From Bondarzewia mesenterica (lineage: Eukaryota > Basidiomycota > Agaricomycetes > Russulales > Bondarzewiaceae): 60,735 nucleotides of DNA. The translations under genes and the position numbers were made by a program. The notes below the pieces were generated by a model that saw nothing but the letters and a program-made list of their open reading frames with translations, was not told where the DNA came from and ran no database searches. Location of the stretch: the NCBI GenBank assembly GCA_004802705.1, contig SGPL01000156.1:1-60735 (forward strand). Direction: 5' to 3'. This document shows, piece after piece, positions 5,432-60,040 of the stretch (position 1 is the stretch's first letter; every line of letters starts with the position of its first letter).

Positions 5432-7010
5432 ATGGTCACTCGAGCGCCCTCATTCGATGACTTGGCGACTTGGGATGATGCAGTTGCTCACGGTATCCGC
5501 ACCATTGACGATGACGACGACGAGCCAGCGGAGCCAACGTCCATGTGAGTATCATCCCTCATTTCACATGCGTGCACCGACCAAGTGAACCCTCCACAGT
5601 GACCCTCGACCTCTATCTCTTGACGTTGTCAGCATTGACAACAACATAATTGAACTTGAATCACAGCTCAAAGCTCTACGGCTTCAAAGGTCCCAATTAT
5701 TAGGCAAACACGCACTCATCAACCGCATGCCGCCCGAACTCCTTTCCAGAGTGTTCGAGCTCGGAGTACACGAGCAGACCCATCTCCTCCCCTCTCTCTC
5801 TCTCGTATCGAAGCATTGGCGGAATGTTGCTCTCTTAACTCCATCTATCTGGACATATATCCGTCTCGACCACGACTGGGGCTATGCCAGGCACGCCGCC
5901 TTCCTCCGTAAATTGAGCGTCTACACCAGCCGCTCTCAGGCGTGCAAGCTCCTCATCGACATCGACTGCCGATATGTCGAGATAGTATCCGAGCTCGAAC
6001 AGATTATGAGTGCGCTTGAGCCTCATCTGCACAGGTGCTTTTCTTTCCGTATGTCTGTGCCAGACTGGGAATGGATGGAGGTCGTGCGACGGCACGCGCA
6101 ATACCTCGGTCCCGCGCTCGAAGAGCTCTATGTACGCCTTGATCCCACAGACTCAGAAGACCAAACGCCCTTCGTTCTGCTATCTAAACCGTGTCCCCGA
6201 CTCTCAGTGGTCACGCTTGAGCACACACCGCTCATCGCTATCCGCACTGAGCTCCCGTCCCTGCGTCGGCTCCATCTAATACGAGACCAGCGCTTCCACT
6301 CTTCCCGAATCGGCATCTCCTTCAGAGAACTGTTCTCGCTCCTCACCTCCACGCCAACACTGCAGGAACTCCGCATCCATTCAGCGCTTTTCCTCCTTGA
6401 TGGCTCGGAAGCAATCTTCCAATCCTCTCCACAACCTACCAGCCTTCCCTCCCTCTCATCTCTCACCTTCCATTTCGTCGACTCGAATAATCTAGTGACA
6501 TTCCTCGAATCAGCGCTCCTCCCCTCGCTGACGCGGCTATCTGTCCAAATGGACCCGTCCGCAGACGAGAACCTCCACTGGCTCGTCCGACTCGCGCTCG
6601 ATAGCCCGACGCGCCTCCCCGCCCTCCGGCACCTCGACCTTCGTTCCTGCAGCATCGACGGGGCTGCCATCGTCCCCTTTGTACGCGCACTCTACCACCT
6701 TCCCACCATCACCGCGCTAGGACTGTCCAGCCCACCCTCTGGCCACATCGGCGCGCGCATCTTCGACGTCCTCGCCAGGGCACCCGCAGATTGGGGCGAG
6801 GCGTGGCTTCTCCCGCGCCTCGAGGCGCTCTGTCTGCAGAACTGCAGGGACGTGTCAGGGCACGAGATCCTGCGCGTCGTCCGCGCGCGCAATGTTGGCG
6901 CACAGGGTGTGGCGGCCATCCGGTACGTGAAGGTGTCACAGTGCTATGCGCTCGACCCCGACGTGCAAGACCAATTGAAAAGGCTGGTCGATGTCGTGCG
7001 TGTCTTGTAA
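5432..7010 (+). CDS. F-box protein with leucine-rich repeats
   Basis: Two exons (5432-5544, 5600-7010) give 507 aa. The first exon is acidic (a run of Asp/Glu). A short coiled-coil-like stretch (IIELESQLKALRLQRSQLL) precedes the F-box: RMPPELLSRVFELGV, then LSLVSKHWRNVALLTPSIW, about residues 92-140. The rest is a series of irregular Leu-rich repeats (LPSLSSLTFHFVD, LPALRHLDLRSCSIDG and similar). F-box proteins of this type recruit substrates to SCF ubiquitin ligases through Skp1. This layout (short N-terminus, F-box, degenerate LRRs) is a very large and fast-evolving family in Agaricomycetes, so no substrate can be assigned. The start is the first ATG in frame with the F-box across the intron. 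Confidence 0.85.
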
Positions 7011-22953: not shown

Positions 22954-25900
22954 ATGGATAATGCAGGCTGGCATGCACAGCGTAGGGCTGCACACGGGGT
23001 GAGCTATGTCATTGCTCCCAGTTATTCGACTTGCTCATGCGGCTCATGCCGACATAAAGAACGATGGGCAGCCCCCACCAAGAGGCCCTGACGGGCGGTT
23101 TCAACCTATTGAACAGGTCATGCCAATGGATGAGGGCTTCATCGGAGGATTCAATCCGTCCGTTAAACCAATCACTCCTGGACCCCCTCTCCCTCCGAAA
23201 GACGACATGGGTCCCCCGCCATTACCGAACCGCCCTCTCCACACACCCGTAGGATTTCCACCGACCACTTGGGGTGCCCCCGTAGCGCCAGAGGGTGTTG
23301 GGGAATCGAAGCAGCCCTCCGTATCATCTAACACGTCTCAGTTCACTCAAATGAGCGCCGTCGAGCGCTCCCAGCATCTCAGAGTCGCGAAAACGAACCC
23401 TCACTTGCAGTTCATGTGCGGACCATTACTCCGCTATGACACGGTGAACGATCAGGGAGTCTGGCTTGGTGCAGCTCTCGTAGTCAGTAAGTGATCGCCG
23501 CAGTCCTAATGTCTGGAACCCTCGCTTAGCGCGCGCCTGACATGCAGCTGCGGATGCTGGCTCAATATACGAACCTCACCCCACGTTCAACTACCATTGG
23601 GATCCTGACCGACCGGCGGTTTTTGAGAAAAGGCATAACGGTGTGAGCACTGGTCACGGAAAGTCAGTTGATCTAGGCCCGCACCCGGCCGATCCCCTAG
23701 CGAACTACATGTCACAGAGCACGGAGAACGGGCATGCATACCAAGGACCCAATGCTCAGAAACAATCCGTTCCTGGGCAGGAGATCTGGGTGTATGAAGG
23801 GAACGGAGGGTGCGTGCGCTCCTCCTCAAATCTCCGGCAGAGCCCATTTATCTTGTTCATGTTTCTCCGCTCAGAACCTATACGTTTTGGAGATTCCTAA
23901 TCGAGATCCCTCTTGTGGAGAACGAGATGAAGATCAAATACAATGTCAATAATGGACAAGAATTTAAGTTCTACGTTCCTGGACGAAATCAGAACATGCG
24001 TATAGCGGCATACTCGGTGTGTCTCCTCCATGACGATTCTTCTCTCTTTTTCTCTTTACTGAATTTGGGAGCTTCTGCAGTGCAATGGATTCAGCGCCGG
24101 TGTCAATCCTGAAGATTTTCGCGGTCCCGGGTTCCAAAGCGGTTATGACCCAGTCTGGGTAGACCTTCTTGCGAAACATAAGGAACGGCCATACCATATG
24201 CTTGTTGGTGGAGGTGATCAGCTATACTGTGACGGGTAAGAGTGAAATAACTTCAATTTTTACGTCGCGGTTTACCAAAGCTCGCGCCTTCTGAGGTTGA
24301 CCCGCGAGCCTGAGCTGCAGGATTGGGTGAACCATACGAAGCCCGAGGAGAAGAAAAAATATCCTCTTACGCAAGAGATTTCGCTTGCAATTGATCGGTT
24401 TTATTTCAACCATTACTGCCAAGTGTTCCGTAGTGGGGCATTTGCGAGAGCAAATAGTTCAATGTATGTACTTCGCATATGCATGAATTCAATGTTTTTC
24501 TACTCAATCCGTCTGATGCAGACCTATGATGAACATGACTGGTGCGAGTTTACTTTCCTCTTGCAGAAGATGAGTTTCTCATTCCAAGGGATGTGGGTCA
24601 ACAACTAGACGATCATGGTACGTGTAATGTAAAATCTACTTGCCATTTGAAGTTTGTGCTGATCAACGTCTTTGACTTACATCTTTAGACCTGGTGAGTG
24701 CATCCTGATATTGACCTTGTAGACAAGGCTGATGTATAAAAGATCGATGGATTTGGAAGCTGTCAGTCTTCCTCATCATGTCCACAGTTCCTCTCACTTA
24801 CTTTCCATTACTTTGGCAGACCCTGATGATTTGCAGAGGGCGCCTGTCTTCAACACGTAAGGGTTTAGAGCGCTACAGCGGAACTATAACCTCATCCGTT
24901 TCACAGAATTGGTTCACGAGGCTTCTTCTTCTTCCTGCTATTCCAGTGCTTTATCAATGGTGCGCCGCAGGCCTTCGCTACATTCGCGATTAGCAATCGT
25001 CATCTTGATATCTGCAGTCGAGGTCGATGGGCTCGACGACCAACCTGGAGCCCATAGCATAAAATCTCTCATCATAGGAGGTCCAGGGTCTTATGTACCC
25101 TTTCCGTCACACTCGTTCCTATCATGGACCGGGCCGACGACGAGATTGCTGATGCTGGATTGTCGGTATGTTTTTGATTTTTAAGTTGTCACGGCCGCCG
25201 TGCTCTTACTGATGAAAACAACATTCGGGAATTCCCAGGGCGGAGAGGAAGCTGGATCAAGTTTGCGGCCAAACGGAGTACCAGAAGGTTTTTGAAAGAT
25301 TAAACACGATGCCGATGAACATCGAGCATCTGATTGTGCAACTCGGTGTGTTCGCTCAATTCGACCTACTGATTTTCTTTTGTCTTGACGATCTGGAAGG
25401 TATACCGATTGCGTATCCCCGCATGGTCTTCCTCGAGACTATGTTGGGCTCAAAGTTGAACCCACTGGTTTCACTCGGCAAGAACGGGTCGTTAGGTCTG
25501 AAAGGCTTCGTGAACAAATTCAATGCTGATGCGGAGCTGCTGGATGATCTAGTATGTCACAACAACCTTTCGTTTCCCTTTCTATGACTCAATAGCAAAC
25601 GATGCAGAATGACCATTGGACGTCAAGACACCATAAGGTAAGTGCAACTCGAGGATGATTTACGTCTGCACGACTGCAAAGAAGCCTGACTTTCATGACG
25701 TTCATGTACACGTAGTCCGAGCGTAACTGGTTCATTGAACAGCTGCAAACCATCGCGGAGCAGCGCCGCATCCGCATCACCTTCCTTTCAGGCGACGTAC
25801 ACTGTGCGGCCGTGGGGATACTTAAAACGCTCAAGAAGGGGAAGAAGGGGGCTGAGGTGCCCCCGCCCGCGGATCATCGGTATATGATCAACGTGGTGAC

Positions 25901-26494
25901 CAGTGAGTGAACCTACGCTACCCTTTCGTCGGTGTGAGAATGTGTGACGAAGGATCGAATTTTGTTGCAGGTGCGATCGTAAATACTCCGTAAGGCGTCG
26001 GTTCCGAATCGATGTTGTGCTGGACCCGTGCTGACTTTTCCTGGTGCTCGTGCTTGGATTGATTGTCTAGACCACCGGGTGGCGTGCTCACAATGGTGAA
26101 CACGCTCGCAACGAAGACGCATCGAACGATGCATTACGCTGATACGGACGAGACAATGGTGAGCTGTTCATTGTTCGCTCAAAGTGTTAGTCGGACTGTA
26201 TCTCAACATCGCATACGGCGCTCTCCCCAGCTTGCGCTGTTCGACAAGGAGCCAGACGGGACGAAGTCCAAGTCCAAGTACGTCATGGGGCGGCGGAACT
26301 GGTGCAGCATCGTACTGGATGCGCCCAGCGGCGATCTGGTATTCGATATTCGCGTCGAGAGGGAGAAGGGCGTGGGCGAGACTGTCGGGTACGGTTTTTC
26401 CTCCTGTACTTTTCTATGCATGCTGAGCCTACTTCTATTTTTGACGTACAGATACACCACTCGAGCACCTGCCCCGCATTGGTCACCCAAGTGA
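22954..26494 (+). CDS. PhoD-like phosphatase, fungal PhoD_2 type
   Basis: Large fungal phosphatase of the PhoD fold (relatives include yeast YGR266W); the substrate is unknown. The preferred start is the ATG at 22954 (45-nt exon MDNAGWHAQRRAAHG, then a GTGAGC donor). The ATG at 23006 is an alternative that would read through that intron. Conserved blocks: PPPRGPDGRFQP, LQFMCGPLLRYDTV, AGVNPEDFRGPGFQSGYDP, HMLVGGGDQLYCD, IPMMNMTDDHDLIDGFGSY, SLIIGGPGSYVPFPSHSFLS, LMLDCRAERKLDQVC, WFIEQLQTIAEQRRIRITFL followed by SGDVHCAA, NTPPPGGV, YVMGRRNWCSIVL. The DDHD and GDVH motifs are the expected metal ligands. The DDHD region is split over exons of 20, 9, 5, 19 and 37 nt (24522-24541, 24609-24617, 24689-24693, 24743-24761, 24820-24856), all with GT-AG ends. 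The C-terminus is YTTRAPAPHWSPK. Confidence 0.88.
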
Positions 26495-26942: not shown

Positions 26943-28812
26943 TCATGAGTCGTCGAGCTGCATCTGTGTGGACGCCGCGCTGTAATAATGATAATTCTGC
27001 TGCTGCTGCGTCTGTGGAACAGGTGCTTCCTCTTCTTCCTCTTCTTCCTCGGCCTCGACTTGGCCCTCGCCATCACCGTACTCCGAGGTATAGGCACTGT
27101 GCGCGCCGGCGTGATCAACGCTTGACGCCGTGGGCGCGGGGGAATGCGCCTCGACGAGTATGCGTAGCTCATGCGGCAGAGACAAACTGGGGAGGTGTCC
27201 GTCATCCAAAGGCGTGCTCTCGTCCCTCTCTGCCGTCCCCTGCTTCAACGCATCTTTCTTGCGCTTACGCGCCTCTGCCTGCGCGCGCCGCCTCTCGCGC
27301 TGTGCAGCGCGCTTTTCCTGTTCCGCGGTCTCTGCGGCGATGTTCTCCAACGCCTGTTCCTCCTCCAGCCGGTCCAGCGCCCATTGCTCCTCCATGAACT
27401 CGCGATAGCGCTCAGAGAACGGCCTCCACGCCCGTCCCTGATCCTGCTCGTGCTCATGTTCGCTCTTCACGCGTTCATCGCCCACCTCACCCGCAAGAGC
27501 CGCGTCGATGTCGGCGGGGGGGCGGGTACGCAAAGTCCGGGCCGGAATTAATGCGCACGCGTGCGTCATTGAAGAGGGAGATGAAAGGGTAGTATCCCAA
27601 GCACCCATCATCAAACGGGTTCTCCTTGTGTTCCCGCGCACCCTCCCGCGCACGTTTGCGCGCCTTGCGGGCGTCGGCCGGTGCGGCGCGCAGTGGCAGA
27701 AAATCGTAGAGCTCACAGAAAGCCGGCCCGGGGGTCTGCCCATTGACGAAGAACGCGATCTGCGAGGTAGGCAGCGTCGGCAACGGCCTCAGCGGCGCAG
27801 GCTCAGGTGCGGACTTAACACTGCGTCCACCGCGTTCAGGCACGTTCTTGACGGTGGCAGATTTTTTGGTGGACGAGGGCAGCGGCGTGGAGTCGGTCGG
27901 CTTACGGTTGTAGTCCATGAGCGCGATCATCTCTTTTGACTGTGGGTATTCAAGGTATTCGAAATATTCCTGCCCCTTGAACTCGATCGCGATACGTTCG
28001 CGCTTGATGTGCGCGGGGTCGTGCGGATCGTCGGGATCGGGCTGACGCAAGGACGGCAGGGAAATGTACATGCCAATCGTGTCACCAGGGCCGAATGAAG
28101 GGCCATAGGGGCGCGTGCGGGAGAGATGGACCTTCTCGCCTGTCTTGTCGCGGAGGCCGTAGCTGTAGCCATCAAGCCCGCAGGGCGCGTTCAATGGTGC
28201 CTCGCGGCGACCCCAACCGAGGCGAACATACGCGCCCTCGCGCTTGGAGGTGTCTGTCCGCGCGCCCCCACCGTGCTCGACAGTCACTTCGAGGTACCAC
28301 TTGCCCTCGCGCACGGGCGCGTTGAGGCGCGCGCTGCGGAAGCCCTTGTCGCCTAGCAGACCAAGGCCGTCAGGCGTAACTTTGATAAAGGGGCTGCGAT
28401 CCTCCCAGCTCACCCGTGAGGTCGTCGGCGGGCTTTCGATGGTGCGTACATGAATGGTGGAGCCCGGGGGTGTGAGGCCGGCGGGGATGTAGCGGAAGCC
28501 GAGGCGATTGGTAGCGAGTTGTTCTGTGAAGTGATAGGGCGAGCCTTCGGAGATGGGAACAAAGACAGGGACGCGGGAGATAGAGAGACGCGGGCGAGAA
28601 GCGAGGTCGTGAGTAGATGGGAGCACGACGTTGTCGGTTGGATTTAAGGAGGAAGGACCTGGATCAGAGGGTGCAGGAGAGGCGGTCGCTGTAACGGCGC
28701 CAGAGAAATTGTTTTTTCGTTTCTTCGAGGGTGCATGGTGAGATGTAGTGAATAGAACAGCGGCAGAAGAGGGAGATTCGTCGCGCGCTGGGGGAGAGCC
28801 TCGAGCAAGCAT
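26943..28812 (-). CDS. BRE2: Bre2/Ash2 subunit of the COMPASS H3K4 methyltransferase (one homopolymer frameshift)
   Basis: SPRY-domain subunit of COMPASS, which stimulates Set1. A single exon from the ATG at 28812 (MLARGSPPARDESPSS). The SPRY domain covers roughly residues 130-400: GLLGDKGFRSARLNAPVREG, GKWYLEVTVEHGG, EGAYVRLGWGRREAPLNAP, GLDGYSYGLRDKTGEKVHLS, GPGDTIGMYISLP, IAFFVNGQTPG, GYYPFISLFNDARVRINSGP. Two disordered inserts interrupt it, one following YLEYPQSKEMIAL and one Lys/Arg-rich near AFCELYDFLP. A 7-G run (27516-27522 on the plus strand) shifts the frame. With six, FAYPPPADIDAALAGE continues into the C-terminal Dpy30-binding-like helix (FSERYREFMEEQWALDRLEE) and an acidic/Gln tail, about 622 aa in all. 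The run length is the obvious suspect. Confidence 0.9.
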
Positions 28813-28840
28813 GCTAGTCACGGTGAACAAGGAAGGGTTT

Positions 28841-28853
28841 CCCTAACCCTAAA
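28841..28853. promoter_or_regulatory. Telomere-like CCCTAACCCTAAA motif (telo-box) in a divergent promoter
   Basis: Two direct CCCTAA units followed by AA lie 29 bases before the Bre2 ATG and about 115 bases before the E2 ATG. TTAGGG repeats are the usual fungal telomere unit. In yeasts, Tbf1/Teb1-type Myb proteins bind such motifs inside promoters. Position in a 155-bp divergent promoter suggests a regulatory site rather than a telomere relic. Confidence 0.5.
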
Positions 28854-47595: not shown

Positions 47596-50500
47596 ATGTC
47601 TTCAGCACAAGGGGAATTGTAAGCACCAGCTGCGTTCGTTTGGTCATTCGCCTTCTGACAAGTAATACTACTTTCTGCAGGAAAAAGATTAGGATTACGG
47701 GTGTGTTGTTCTCCATATCCTAGTATCAAAAAATAGACCAAGCTCCCATTCAGTTGTCGCCGCCGATGGCCTTTCCAAACGCGATGTCTTCAGACTCCCT
47801 GACCCCTTCGCTGTTATTACTGTCGATGCCGAGCAGACACATACGACCAGTGTAATCAAGAAGACGCTCAACCCCTATTGGAACGAGAGTTTTGATATGT
47901 AAGTTCAGCTACATCGTTCCGTTTTTACTTGCTGATTCACGCCGGTTGATTTACACAGCATGGTTAAGGAGTCGTCTGTGGTTGCTGTGCAAATCTTTGA
48001 CCAACGCAAGTTTAAGCGCCGAGACCAAGGCTTCTTAGGCGTCGTCAATGTACGAGTCAGTGATGTGTTAGACTTGGAACTGGGCGGACATGGTGCGTAT
48101 ACCTACCTTTTCCTATGCTCTTCGTTTGTTTATTTGTTTACTTGGGTATGCCAGAAATGCTGCAGTTAGATCTGAAGAAGTCCAATGACAATCTGGTTGT
48201 ACACGGCAAACTCATTATCTATCTTTCGACAAACCTCAGCCAGCCTGCTACCAACTCTCGTTCCGGAGGAGGGGTCGGTTCACTTAACGCAGGCGTCGCT
48301 GGCCTCTCAATGAACGAGTCTTCTCTCTCAGTCAACAATACTGCGGCAGCCAGCTCAGGTGCCCTTTCTCGTACCCCAAGTTCTCACGCCACAACCCAAG
48401 AGCCCGCGATGTCAATGCCCACGCCAGTCGTATCTCAGGAAACCGAGCAACAAGCACAACCCCAGGCGAACAGTTCAACACGTCCTGTCAGCACGGGGGG
48501 TTCTTCCGCGCAGCCAACCGCCAATCAGCAGGGAATGCGTCCCGCAGCGCCTGGAGCTGTATCTCCTGGCCAGGCAGTTGTAGCCAATAATCAGGCGCAG
48601 CACAATTTCAATCCAAACGAAGACCAATACGGTCCTCTCCCACCTGGGTGGGAACGTCGCATAGATCCTCTTGGCAGGACGTATTATGTCGATCACAACA
48701 CCCGCAGCACCACTTGGAATCGACCTTCGAACAGCCAGTCCACGAACAATCATGTTCAAGAGGGTGAGACGAACGCTGCTCGCGATCATAACAACCGCCG
48801 GATACTTGCAGATGATTTGTTGGAGGCGAACAATGGTACGACCTTGGGGAGGAGTGGGTCCGCGGTGGCACAGCCTACCGCTGCTGCTGCTGTCGCAGCC
48901 AGCACCAATGCTAGCACCCCGGGCACTGGGAATCTTCCAGCTGGGTGGGAAGAGAGATATACTCCCGAAGGGCGGCCGTACTATGTGGATCACAACACAC
49001 GCACGACGACATGGGTCGATCCGCGTCGGCAGACCATCATCCGTGTCATGGGTCCCAACGGTCAGAACACATCGCTCCAGCCCCAGTCGATATCTCAGCT
49101 CGGTCCCCTGCCCTCTGGGTGGGAAATGCGTCTTACTTCGACTGCCCGCGTTTATTTCGTGGACCACAACACGAAGACGACGACATGGGATGACCCGCGC
49201 TTGCCTTCGTCGCTCGATGCGAATGTACCTCAGTACAAGCGTGACTTCCGCAGGAAGCTCATATACTTCAGGAGCCAACCAGCGATGCGCGCACAGCCGG
49301 GCAACTGCCAGATCAAAGTTAGACGTAACCACATCTTTGAGGATAGTTACGCGGAGATCATGAGGCAGACACCTAATGATTTGAAAAAGAGACTTATGAT
49401 CAAGTTCGATGGGGAGGATGGTTTGGATTATGGTGGCCTCTCCAGGTGTGTAATATCATTGTTGTTTCTGGCCTGTATTCTGATCTTCACCTAGAGAGTT
49501 TTTCTTCCTCCTCTCTCACGAAATGTTCAACCCCTTCTATTGTCTTTTCGAGTATTCGGCACACGACAATTACACGTTGCAAATCAACCCTGCATCTGGC
49601 GTCAACCCCGAACATTTGAATTATTTCAAGTTCATCGGTCGCTGTCTCGGTCTCGGCATCTTCCATCGTCGTTTCCTCGACGCATACTTCATCGTCAGCT
49701 TCTACAAAATGATCTTGAAGAAGAAGGTTACATTGGCCGACTTGGAGAGTGTGGATGCTGAATTGCATCGTGGTTTGACTTGGATGCTGTAAGTTGTGCA
49801 TCATACGAATTCTGGATGCAGACGCTCATGCAATTGTGGCTAGCGAGAACGACATCACTGATGTTATCGATGAGACGTTTACTACAACCGAGGAACGCTT
49901 CGGCGAGATGGTCACAATTGAATTGAAGCCTGGTGGAGCGGATGTCCCAGTGACGGAGGAGAACAAGAAGGATTATGTCGATCATGTGGTCGAGTATCGC
50001 ATTTCCAAGCGTGTCAAGGAGCAGTTCGATGCGTTTATGTCTGGTTTCAGCGAGTTGATCCCTCAAGAACTAGTCAACGTATTCGACGAGCGTGAGCTTG
50101 AGCTGCTGATCGGCGGCATGTCCGAGATCGACGTGTATGTGCTCGTTCTCGTCCCTACTGCCATCTATTTGTACTGATCTACCTGATTTGTTGCAGTGAC
50201 GATTGGACCAAGTTCACTGATTACCGCGGTTACGAGGTGAATGATGAGGTGATCCAATGGTTCTGGAAGTGCGTGCGGTCGTGGCCGCCCGAGCGCAAGT
50301 CGCGGTTGCTGCAGTTTGCAACGGGAACGTCACGGATTCCTGTGAACGGATTCAAGGACTTGCAAGGCTCGGACGGCCCGCGTCGGTTTACCATCGAGAA
50401 GGCGGGCGACCCGTCGCAGTTGCCGAAGAGTCACACGTGCTTCAACCGAATCGATCTACCGCCATACAAGGACTATGCGAGCTTGGAGTACAAGCTGACC

Positions 50501-56054: not shown

Positions 56055-59000
56055 ATAGTACACCTGAACCCACGCTCACAAGTTTACGAATCTGGCAACA
56101 AAATGTCAACACGTCGCCTGACAACCAATAAAGTCTCCTTAGCTCAGCCAAACCGGAAGACTTCGACCTCTTAGTCCTACAGGAACCCAGCATTAATTTC
56201 CTCAGAAACACCGTGGCCACGCCGGCGTGGACGGTAATCTACCCCACTAACCACTTACAGAAACCTAAAGCTACTAGATCCCTAATCCTTGTCCGCTCCA
56301 AGCTCTCCACCAGCAGCTGGCGCCAAATCGACTTCCCCAGCCCCGACGTTACTGTAATTCAACTCTCTGGCACCTTCGGCCAACTCACCATCTTCAACAT
56401 CTACAACTCGAACAACCACGGCCGCACCCTCGACGCCCTTGATAGTTATCTCAGGCAACACGAACATGACCTCCTCCCGGACAACCGGTCGTACCTCGTC
56501 TGGTGCGGCAACTTCAACAGGCACCACCCGCTCTGGGACAACCCCGAGGACACCCACCTCTTCACGAAAAAAGCACTCGAGGCAGCAAAACCAATCCTCA
56601 CCCTCCTTGCATGATACCACATGGTCATGCCACTCCCCGGAGGTATTCCGACCCTGCAACATTTCGTCACTGGTAAGTACTCGAGGCCCGACAACGTCTT
56701 CTGCTCGGACACCTGCACTGACCTTTTCATCACATGCGACACCAATCTCGGCCTCCGAGGCCCCAAGACTGATCACCTACCCATACTCAGCCATATGGAC
56801 CTCGACATTCCGCTTACTCTGGCTCGGGAAATACGTAACTGGCGCCTCACGGACTGGGACGCCTTCGCAAAAGAGACTGAAATACGACTAGGCGACTTCC
56901 CTCCCCCCCAACACATCACGTCTACCACGCAATTCACCCAAGCTGCAGACAACCTTATCGAAGCCCTCACAGATGTCATACGCACGACGGTCCCCATCTC
57001 TAAGCCATGTTCCTTTTCCAAATGCTGGTGGACCTCTGACCTCATGACCATGCGTAAAGAGAAGCAACGCCTCGCTAACTTATCTTACAGCCTTCGTCAC
57101 CTACCCAACCACCCGTCGCACCAACAGGTCAAGGACATCAGAAACGCATACGCTACCGAGATTCAGCGCACGAAGAAGCAACATTGGGAAGATTGGCTAG
57201 AGGACGCTAAAGAAAAGGATATGTGGATTGCCAACAAGTACATCTCATCCCCTGCAGGTGATGGAGGCAGAACACGAGTACCATCGCTCAAGACCCAGCT
57301 CCCGGACGGTACGACTAGATCATTGGTTACTAACAGCGAGAAAAGTGCAGCGCTAGCGAGTACCTTCTTTCCCCCACCCCCGGAAACTTCAAGCATCGAC
57401 CCAGACTTCATCTACCCCCCACCGGCTTTTGACTTCATCCCCATCACATGTGAACAAATTCTCTGTCATCTCAAACACCTCCAACCGTACAAAGCACCAG
57501 GACCTGACGGTATCCCCAACATCGTCCTTATGCGCTCAGGCGATCTAGTCCTCGAACACCTCTACTACCTCTACACGGCCACATTCGAACTCCAGATCTT
57601 CTACCCCCCGTGGCGCGACTCTATCACGGTTGTCCTACGCAAGCCCAGTAAATCACGATACGACGTGCCGAAGGCCTACCGACCCATCGCACTGCTCAAT
57701 ACCACATACAAACTCCTATCTGCCATTGTAGCGGAGGAAATTACGTACATAATGGAAGCTAACAACCTCGTCCCAGCCACGCACTTCAGTGGGAGGCCTG
57801 GACGCACAACAACGAACTCCATGCTATTAATTGTTGACAAAATCAAGGCTGCATGGCGGGATCACAAGATAGTATCGGTACTCTTCCTAGATATCAAAGG
57901 CGCGTTTCCGAATGCGGTGACAGAGCGCTTACTCCACAACATGCGTAAGAGGCGCATCAACGAGACATATGTTCTGTTCATAGCGCGCCTACTACAAAAC
58001 CGACGCACCACCCTCCGCTTCGACGACTACACTTCGGACTTCATTGATCTCATCAATGGAATAGGACAGGGTGATCTGTTGTCCATAATACTCTACCTCT
58101 TCTACAACGCTGACCTCTTAGATGTACCCCGTGGCCCTAAGGAGTCGGCTACTTCCTTCGTCATCGACGCGGCCTTTATTGCAGTTGGCAAGACCTTCAG
58201 TGAAACTCACAAGACGCTAGCGCGAATGATGAAACGTGCAGGAGGGGGTATAGACTGGTCGAAAGCTCACAACTCACACTTTGAAGACAGCAAATTAGCA
58301 CTCATCGATTTCTCAAGGCGCCAGGACCCAGACACAGTTCACCCTGGCAAAACAACACCCGCAAAATGCCCGCCGCTCACTCTTCCCTCGGTCACCATCC
58401 GCCCCTCGACATCGGTCAAATTCTTAGGCGTTTACTTCGACCAGGAACTACGATGGAAGCCGCAAGTGCAACATGCGATAGGCAAAGCAATGAAATGGAC
58501 TCTGCAACTCCGGCGTCTCTCGCGAGCATCCACAGGATTACCGCCAATCTTTGTGCGGAGGTTGTATGAGAGCGTGGCCGTCACTAAATTATCTTATGCA
58601 GCTCCTGTCTGGTGTGTTCCCATCCACATCAAAGGAAATGGACGACGGGCGGGCTCTATAGGGATCATAAAACAGCTCAGTAAAGTACAGCGCCTCGCTG
58701 CTCTAACGTTCACAGGTGCCCTCCTGTCTACCGCACAAGACGTACTGAACATACACGCGTTCTTCCTCCCAGTCCCCCTCCTCATCGATAAAGTCTGTTT
58801 CTGAGCAGCCCTGCGTATTGCTGGAGTCCCGTCAAAGCACCCTCTCTTCCGGCCTGTGCGTGATGGAGCGACCTTTAACCCCAAATCCAACCGCTCACCC
58901 CTACATGACCTCATGCATATCTACAACATCACACCCAGCTCAATCGAAATGATACACCTCTTTTGCCACCACCGACCCTCAACGCGCCCCGCATTCACCA

Positions 59001-60040
59001 CCCACATCAAAAAGGACAAAAAGGCAGCCATCTCTGCTGACCGAAAGCTCAAATCAATCATCCGAGTCTATACAGACGGCTCAGCTATCGATGGCAAGGT
59101 AGGGGCAGCAGCATATCTGTACCGAGAGGACAGAGTTGGAGAAGAACCGAAGAAGTTATTTTACCACCTCGGAAGCGTCCACGACCACACAGTATTCGAA
59201 GCGGAGGCGGTAGGCTTAACATTGGTAGCCGAACTAATACGACGTGAAAGTGTTGACATCTGCCAACTCACATCCATTAGCCTAGACAACCAAGCGGCCA
59301 TTGCAGCCACAGATCTCCGCCGTCCCAAATCCGGATATCACATACTGGACACATTCAATGCTCAGGTCGATCACCTCCAGGACACACGAGGTGGTGCATA
59401 CAAGCTTCAGCTCCACTGGGTGCCCAGACATGAGGACGTTGCACGCAACGAAGCAGTGGACAAAGCGGCCAAACAAGCGGCCAAGGGTAAGACCAGCTTG
59501 CGGATACGCCTTCCTGAATACCTACAGAACGGATCGCTCCCAGCCAGCATATCCGCAAGGCGCCAAGCCCATCAGGACGCCCTACTTGAATGCTGGAAAA
59601 AAGAATGGGAAGCCTCACCACGACACGCCCGCATCAGCAAATATGACCCCTCACTCCCATCCAAATCCTACCTACGCCGCGTCAAAACCTTCACGAGGAC
59701 GCAAGCGAGCCTATTCATACAACTCCGTACAGGCCATATCCCCCTACAGCAGCACCTCTAGTGCATAGGAAAGGCCGACTCCGCAATCGGCACATATTGC
59801 GCTGACGCAGAGGAAATGGTTAGACACTTTCTCATTGACTGTCAATTTTTTCGAAAGGACCACCTCATCCTCAAGAACGCACTCCGCCGCGACGCCAATG
59901 ACCTCAGCAAGCTCCTTTCCAATGACACCTCTAACGCAAAACCTCTCTTTCGATACATTTGCGACACCGGCCACTTCAAAGACATTTATGGAGAGAAGTT
60001 CAAAATAAACAGTGCGGACACGGACTCGGACGATGGCTAA
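56051..60040 (+). pseudogene. LINE ORF2 (endonuclease - reverse transcriptase - RNase H), four nonsense codons
   Basis: One continuous reading frame of 1330 codons from ATG 56051 to TAA 60038, interrupted only by TAA 56129, TGA 56612, TGA 58802 and TAG 59759, with no indel. Endonuclease: LRIWQQNVNTS, LLVLQEPSI, YLVWCGNFNRHHPLWD, KTDHLPI. The catalytic GDFN reads GNFN. Reverse transcriptase: YKAPGPDGIPNIVL, AYRPIALLNTTYKLLSAIVA, LFLDIKGAFPNAV, GIGQGDLLSIILYLFYNADL; the FxDD box reads FVIDAAF, so one catalytic Asp is gone. RNase H: IRVYTDGSAIDGKVGAAAY, FEAEAVGL, SLDNQAAIAA, WVPRHEDVARNEAVDKAA, with the acidic residues present. A Cys/His end motif follows (YCADAEEMVRHFLIDC). The copy cannot move itself. 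Confidence 0.9.

Follow-up and report, generated by a model that had tools for sequence, protein, structure and literature searches.

Microexons are already known in fungi, as are tiny exons in fungi related to the species considered here. In the accessible parts of the respective reports, the CYP621A P450 genes of Fusarium carry a transcript-supported exon of 1 nt, one per gene and in one genus (PMC12940212); the P450 genes of Phanerochaete chrysosporium combine introns of 45–55 bp with exons as short as 6 bp (PMC1184071), with an 8-nt exon in a conserved I-helix motif cited in PMC12940212; and very short exons, sometimes under one codon, are called typical of the genes of Phlebia radiata (PMC6540522). 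As far as the accessible text of PMC11121469 goes, Trichoderma Xlr2 contains a glucose-regulated 20-nt microexon that encodes two cysteines of a zinc domain, is conserved in the genus and was missed by annotation, and in that of a Cryptococcus study (PMC3990503) microexons appear merely as a read-mapping setting. In the literature that we searched on fungal microexons and short exons and on PhoD in Agaricomycetes, a coverage outside which most subscription papers fell, no title or opening of an abstract among the matches listed described an enzyme with five consecutive exons of this kind in its metal loop, nor the frequent loss of such a run from public gene models.

Here we analyze a 60,735-nt stretch of the Bondarzewia mesenterica genome (hereafter the window), in which five tiny exons, the shortest of them 5 nt, together encode what is probably the metal-binding core of a PhoD-like phosphatase. 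The initial annotation of this DNA regarded 5 nt as close to the shortest exon imaginable, a view contradicted by the 1-nt exons of Fusarium CYP621A as reported in the accessible part of PMC12940212.

Results

A phosphatase gene with a five-exon core

Our hand-built model of the PhoD_2 phosphatase gene runs from start to stop codon at 22954–26494 on the forward strand of the window and comprises 21 exons (45, 427, 262, 142, 155, 168, 20, 9, 5, 19, 37, 53, 148, 107, 152, 30, 187, 19, 88, 158 and 43 nt) that encode 757 amino acids. All 20 introns are GT–AG, with lengths of 49–81 nt. The initial annotation had proposed that the core is assembled from exons of 20, 9, 5, 19 and 37 nt, with GT–AG borders, fitting phases and introns of 49–71 nt, all of which we found exactly so in the DNA. 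In the gene model, exon 6 (24296–24463, forward strand, as are all exons that follow) ends in ...ARANSSI, with the last codon split as AT|A. The splicing search described below then places exon 7 (24522–24541; 20 nt), which encodes PMMNMT and the first base of an aspartate codon; exon 8 (24609–24617; 9 nt), which completes that aspartate and adds DH and the first base of the next; exon 9 (24689–24693; 5 nt, ACCTG), which supplies the rest of that aspartate and a leucine; and exon 10 (24743–24761; 19 nt), which encodes IDGFGS and the first base of a tyrosine codon. Exon 11 (24820–24856; 37 nt) completes the tyrosine, continues with PDDLQRAPVFN and stops two bases into a threonine codon, whose last base opens exon 12 of the gene model (24907–24959), followed by IGSRGFFFFLLFQCFIN.

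The introns between exons 7 and 11 are 67, 71, 49 and 58 nt long, all four begin with GT and end with AG, and the introns on either side of the array (24464–24521 and 24857–24906) are likewise GT–AG. When joined, exons 7–11 form a single stop-free frame that reads PMMNMTDDHDLIDGFGSYPDDLQRAPVFN. With microexons defined as exons of ≤30 nt, the array holds four of them (20, 9, 5 and 19 nt), exon 11 at 37 nt exceeding the limit, and two more lie further along the gene: the 30-nt exon 16 (25608–25637), which encodes NDHWTSRHHK with its conserved NDHWT motif, and the 19-nt exon 18 (25971–25989), in the region of the conserved SAIVNTP motif.

An open frame with a SPRY domain, which we take to resemble Ash2/Bre2, lies on the opposite strand just downstream of the phosphatase gene (27487–28842, reverse strand). 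Elsewhere in the window, adjoining forward-strand frames at 56615–59761 that encode an RVT_1 reverse transcriptase domain and an RNase H domain are probably a retroelement, an open frame at 48064–49494 (forward) contains three WW-domain stretches, and one at 5589–7010 (forward) encodes an F-box-like protein whose leucine-rich repeat match falls short of the cut-off. Scanning the window for Rfam families (at the gathering threshold) and for tRNAs gave no match.

The assembled core against chance

We searched for the core by dynamic programming over any chain of GT–AG introns of 40–120 nt, without an intron penalty, using as the target 42 core columns taken from 50 relatives whose core is unbroken, the present gene being excluded. 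Alignment A2 contains 47 of these relatives, and because all 50 were picked for having the core, the invariance of the core columns in A2 is circular. For the real DNA, all 42 columns matched, and exactly six introns were recovered, the four of the array and the two at its flanks; an intron penalty of 0.5 returned identical introns. Controls retained the flanking pieces of exon (11 of the 42 columns) and the GT and AG at the ends. Among 200 dinucleotide shuffles of the middle, the mean was 19.6 columns and the maximum 24 (with the chain absent in one), and among 200 other stretches of the window the mean was 19.5 and the maximum again 24 (with the chain absent in eight). Only one of the 812 length-matched in-frame chains scored 42, the runner-up scoring 35, and with looser intron limits (30–200 nt) one chain of 3609 did so, the runner-up scoring 38. 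The maximum of 24 in the controls and the uniqueness of the 42-scoring chain rule out a chance match and alternative splicing chains, and the 42 matched columns and the single such chain among 812 bear out the earlier proposal that the core is recovered only by joining the five exons. The stretch occurred once when sought in the 33-Mb assembly (844 contigs), with no further copy reported. A scan for the branch-point pattern CTRAY, which matched in 8 of the 20 introns, in one case 5 bases from the acceptor, was uninformative.

Family membership and bacterial relatives

The encoded protein scored 245.3 bits against the PF19050 (PhoD_2) profile, for which the cut-off is 22, and 21.3 bits against PF09423 (PhoD in the strict sense), below that profile's cut-off of 27. 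Removing the five short exons lowered the PhoD_2 score to 184.6 bits, so that the array is worth 61 bits, and left PF09423 unlisted. The closest relative among the proteins listed was a 756-amino-acid PF19050 protein of Artomyces pyxidatus (Russulales; P0001), which was 72% identical with 100% of the query aligned. A structural match placed the protein in the PhoD/purple acid phosphatase fold. Bacillus subtilis PhoD (2yeq), which we take to be a member of PF09423 and not of PF19050, was absent among the 50 Foldseek matches listed and was found on a second look; sequence searches of solved structures gave nothing useful, with one unrelated weak match. As reference ligands for the Fe/Ca active site of PhoD we used C180, D207, D265, D266, N271, N272 and D436. 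A 17-sequence alignment of bacterial and fungal proteins shows conservation at SC.G, GGDQ.Y, DDHD..D and SG-.-H, positions assigned from the alignment itself.

A contig search for PhoD_2 relatives returned bacterial records, from which 80 of 83 loci were kept (L002–L081; mostly Proteobacteria by their titles, with 23–32% identity to the fungal enzyme), and a search of viral contigs returned none. Two of the bacterial loci, scanned with Pfam, scored 141 and 120 bits against PF19050 and also passed PF09423, with 37.1 and 48.5 bits. The PhoD_2 family thus spans bacteria and fungi. At all 80 loci, which are intronless, the loop MWDDHD[IL]IDGWGS lies in one frame; because the loci were retrieved via the DDHD pattern, the presence of DDHD there is not independent evidence, and only the continuity around it counts.

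The core in proteins of relatives

We assembled 163 related proteins, the best 120 of 505, 884 and 890 matches in three overlapping searches, of which 24 were ORFs from unannotated assemblies (sources lgn and jgi) and 139 were annotated fungal models. The 24 ORFs are uninterrupted and 625–897 amino acids long, and the longest contigs that carry them measure 2.2–4.5 kb. Because a gene with ~20 introns would not yield such ORFs from genomic DNA, the lgn and jgi contigs are probably spliced cDNA, to judge from the lengths of contig and ORF. The joined DDHD.IDG.GS(Y) was present in all 24, which as full-length ORFs had been selected for lack of interruption, and in 23 by a strict pattern that includes the following proline. 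Of the annotated models, 55 matched the strict pattern and 84 failed it (Fisher p = 1e-7 for the two groups, whose rows are related to each other); 56 passed the shorter pattern DDHD.IDG, and 68 lacked DDHD altogether. In these counts, P0131 was counted as broken although it retains DDHDLIDGFG, and P0121 and P0124 were counted as intact although they are damaged just upstream. Public models of this enzyme in our sample are often wrong at the short-exon stretch, as the initial annotation had anticipated in stating that gene finders would normally miss these exons. One annotated protein, a 1307-amino-acid Tetrapyrgos model named as an adenylyl cyclase-associated protein (P0095), combines PhoD_2 with further domains and is probably an annotation fusion of neighboring genes.

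Predicted consequences of missplicing

Skipping the 20-, 5-, 19- or 37-nt exon singly, or retaining any of the six introns, is predicted to truncate the protein to 402–455 amino acids. The initial annotation's claim that skipping destroys the frame stands for these single skips but not for some multi-exon skips, since the frame is preserved when 9, 5+19 or 9+5+19 nt or all five exons (90 nt) are left out, with the core damaged or removed; its statement that loss of the 9-nt exon stays in frame and harms the core agrees with the same arithmetic. By leave-one-out weight matrices, built from only 20 sites, the donor of exon 9 (CTG|GTGAGT) scored highest of the gene's 20 donors, and by matrices of the same size the acceptor of exon 10 (ATAAAAG) scored lowest of its 20 acceptors. 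A strong donor at exon 9 before a weak acceptor would fit, as a weak indication, a fixed order of splicing.

We are confident in reading the locus as a working metallophosphatase gene of PhoD_2 type, presumably spliced constitutively, whose active-site loop is cut by introns into exons of 20, 9, 5, 19 and 37 nt. Introns would have been inserted into codons of the loop to leave exons of these sizes, and the spliceosome would remove the 49–71 nt introns sequentially, most likely by intron definition, a mode suggested by the short introns together with the short exons. There is hardly room on one 5-nt exon for both U1 and the factors of the 3′ splice site, so the two introns flanking it are probably removed successively. 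All five exons would be needed to rebuild NMTDDHDLIDGFGSYPDD. Splicing in Bondarzewia itself, the order of intron removal and the dependence of activity on the core are the parts of this explanation that we infer.

The frame arithmetic is also compatible with the array acting as a regulated switch, in which in-frame skips (9, 5+19 or 9+5+19 nt, or all five exons) would produce a catalytically dead protein, and other single skips or retained introns would produce early stops and decay. The strongest donor and the weakest next acceptor flank the 5-nt exon, as such a switch might have it, and the 20-nt microexon of Trichoderma Xlr2 is described as glucose-switched in the accessible text of PMC11121469. 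In-frame combinations of skips nevertheless arise by chance, and the ORFs from unannotated assemblies carried the full core in 24 of 24 cases, though such lists show minor isoforms poorly; we therefore consider regulation of this kind unlikely.

Break points in annotated models

Under constitutive splicing of an intact loop, the many defective database proteins would be products of annotation; the alternative is that these skipped and read-through forms are real proteins and that the DDHD loop is often missing or replaced in Agaricomycetes. The sheer number of models without an intact core or without DDHD favors that alternative, as does the fact that some of the skips involved (5+19 or 9+5+19 nt) stay in frame. 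The positions of the errors argue otherwise. In 75 of the 83 broken models with an upstream anchor (P0111, the one remaining of the 84, lacks an anchor and was left out), the first error fell at a column compatible with one of the Bondarzewia junctions, and in eight it fell elsewhere. Because read-through of a donor joins the last bases of the exon to GT, the first wrong residue is fixed: methionine at the exon 6/7 junction (AT|GT), glycine at 7/8 and 8/9 (G|GT) and valine at 9/10 (|GT). We found methionine in 15 of 15 models at 6/7, glycine in 14 of 21 at 7/8 (with another residue in seven), glycine in 17 of 19 at 8/9, and valine in seven of eight at 9/10. Thirteen annotated models contained exact skips, of 5+19 nt (six), 9+5+19 nt (five) or 9 nt (two), as exon borders like those of Bondarzewia would give.

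The share of the first 108 annotated models that depart from columns conserved among the unannotated ORFs was 16, 38, 51, 19 and 13% in exons 7–11, with its peak at the 5-nt exon 9, and 1–9% in the other scorable exons; exon 1 has no conserved column and went unscored, and the per-exon rates include true sequence variation. At exons 16 and 18, annotated relatives differed in only 7–9% on average. Within Mycena and within Lentinula, which exon was missed varied from species to species. The broken forms thus disagree with one another, mostly err first at junction columns and mostly with the read-through residue; the core is kept in every ORF from the unannotated assemblies, and bacterial relatives retain the loop. 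Together, these observations make it very improbable that the defective forms are genuine proteins. That the locus is a decaying pseudogene with an accidental exon pattern in degenerate sequence, a reading in favor of which we saw no evidence, is barely conceivable given a complete 757-amino-acid frame, 20 of 20 GT–AG introns, a length and identity resembling annotated relatives and a unique core match far above chance.

If the defects are annotation errors around a constitutively spliced array, they can be read as traces of its junctions in other species. Read-through residues or exact skips occurred in Heliocybe (Gloeophyllales), Rickenella (Hymenochaetales), Jaapia (Jaapiales), Piloderma (Atheliales), Schizophyllum (Agaricales), Artomyces (Russulales), Daedaleopsis (Polyporales) and Plicaturopsis (Amylocorticiales), with orders assigned by taxonomy look-up. 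In Hygrophoropsis (Boletales), the break is at the 7/8 column with a residue other than the predicted one. With such traces in eight orders, it is very probable that much of the Agaricomycetes has these junctions in common, a conclusion drawn from errors in the gene models of others. The comparison with related Agaricomycetes that the initial annotation proposed, made here at the protein level, thus gave 75 of 83 breaks at columns compatible with the same junctions and the joined core in all 24 lgn and jgi ORFs.

Discussion

The annotated models also bear on the origin of the array. In early-branching groups (Cantharellales, Sebacinales, Auriculariales and Phallomycetidae), the strict core was intact in 14 of 16 models, versus 41 of 123 others (Fisher p = 4e-5, for a grouping made post hoc, with orders looked up for twelve species of the sample, and rows that are phylogenetically non-independent). 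A longer pattern reaching upstream matched in 11 of the 16 versus 41 of the 123, and the shorter DDHD.IDG in 15 of the 16. On the simplest interpretation, gain of the inner introns postdates the split of the early-branching groups and divided an old loop into progressively smaller pieces, and an obligate microexon array grown through intron gain is likely. A bolder extension has an ancient obligate cassette in the later-branching orders, which would have acquired its inner introns once Cantharellales, Sebacinales and Auriculariales had diverged and would serve as a splicing checkpoint: in-frame skips would yield a dead phosphatase and other errors would be destroyed, so that output would follow splicing fidelity. 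We regard this extension as speculative and probably wrong.

Because 84 of the 139 models fail the core and 68 lack DDHD, surveys by active-site motif will undercount the enzyme, and proteins expressed from constructs based on such models will probably lack activity. The PhoD_2 array also makes a clear-cut test case for gene prediction and for mapping reads across short exons. If early-branching orders truly lack the inner introns, these fungi form a natural series for studying how the spliceosome handles consecutive exons of 9 and 5 nt.

The array can be set beside described systems, each compared here on the accessible part of its report. The B. subtilis PhoD (2yeq; PMC4223295) is bacterial and intronless, unlike the Bondarzewia gene. 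Phlebia radiata shares the very short exons, which are the subject there of a general remark without gene, motif or conservation (PMC6540522). The P450 genes of Phanerochaete, also an agaricomycete, have similarly small introns and exons but belong to a different family, and no five-exon run across an active-site loop is seen in that text (PMC1184071). In Trichoderma Xlr2, as in Bondarzewia, a microexon missed by annotation codes for part of a functional domain, but that of Xlr2 is single and glucose-regulated (PMC11121469). Fusarium CYP621A resembles our gene in having an ultra-short exon within a conserved motif that is out of phase if skipped, in having an intronless relative and in being hard to annotate (PMC12940212); the Bondarzewia gene, read here from DNA, differs in having five consecutive short exons and in leaving traces of its junctions in several orders.
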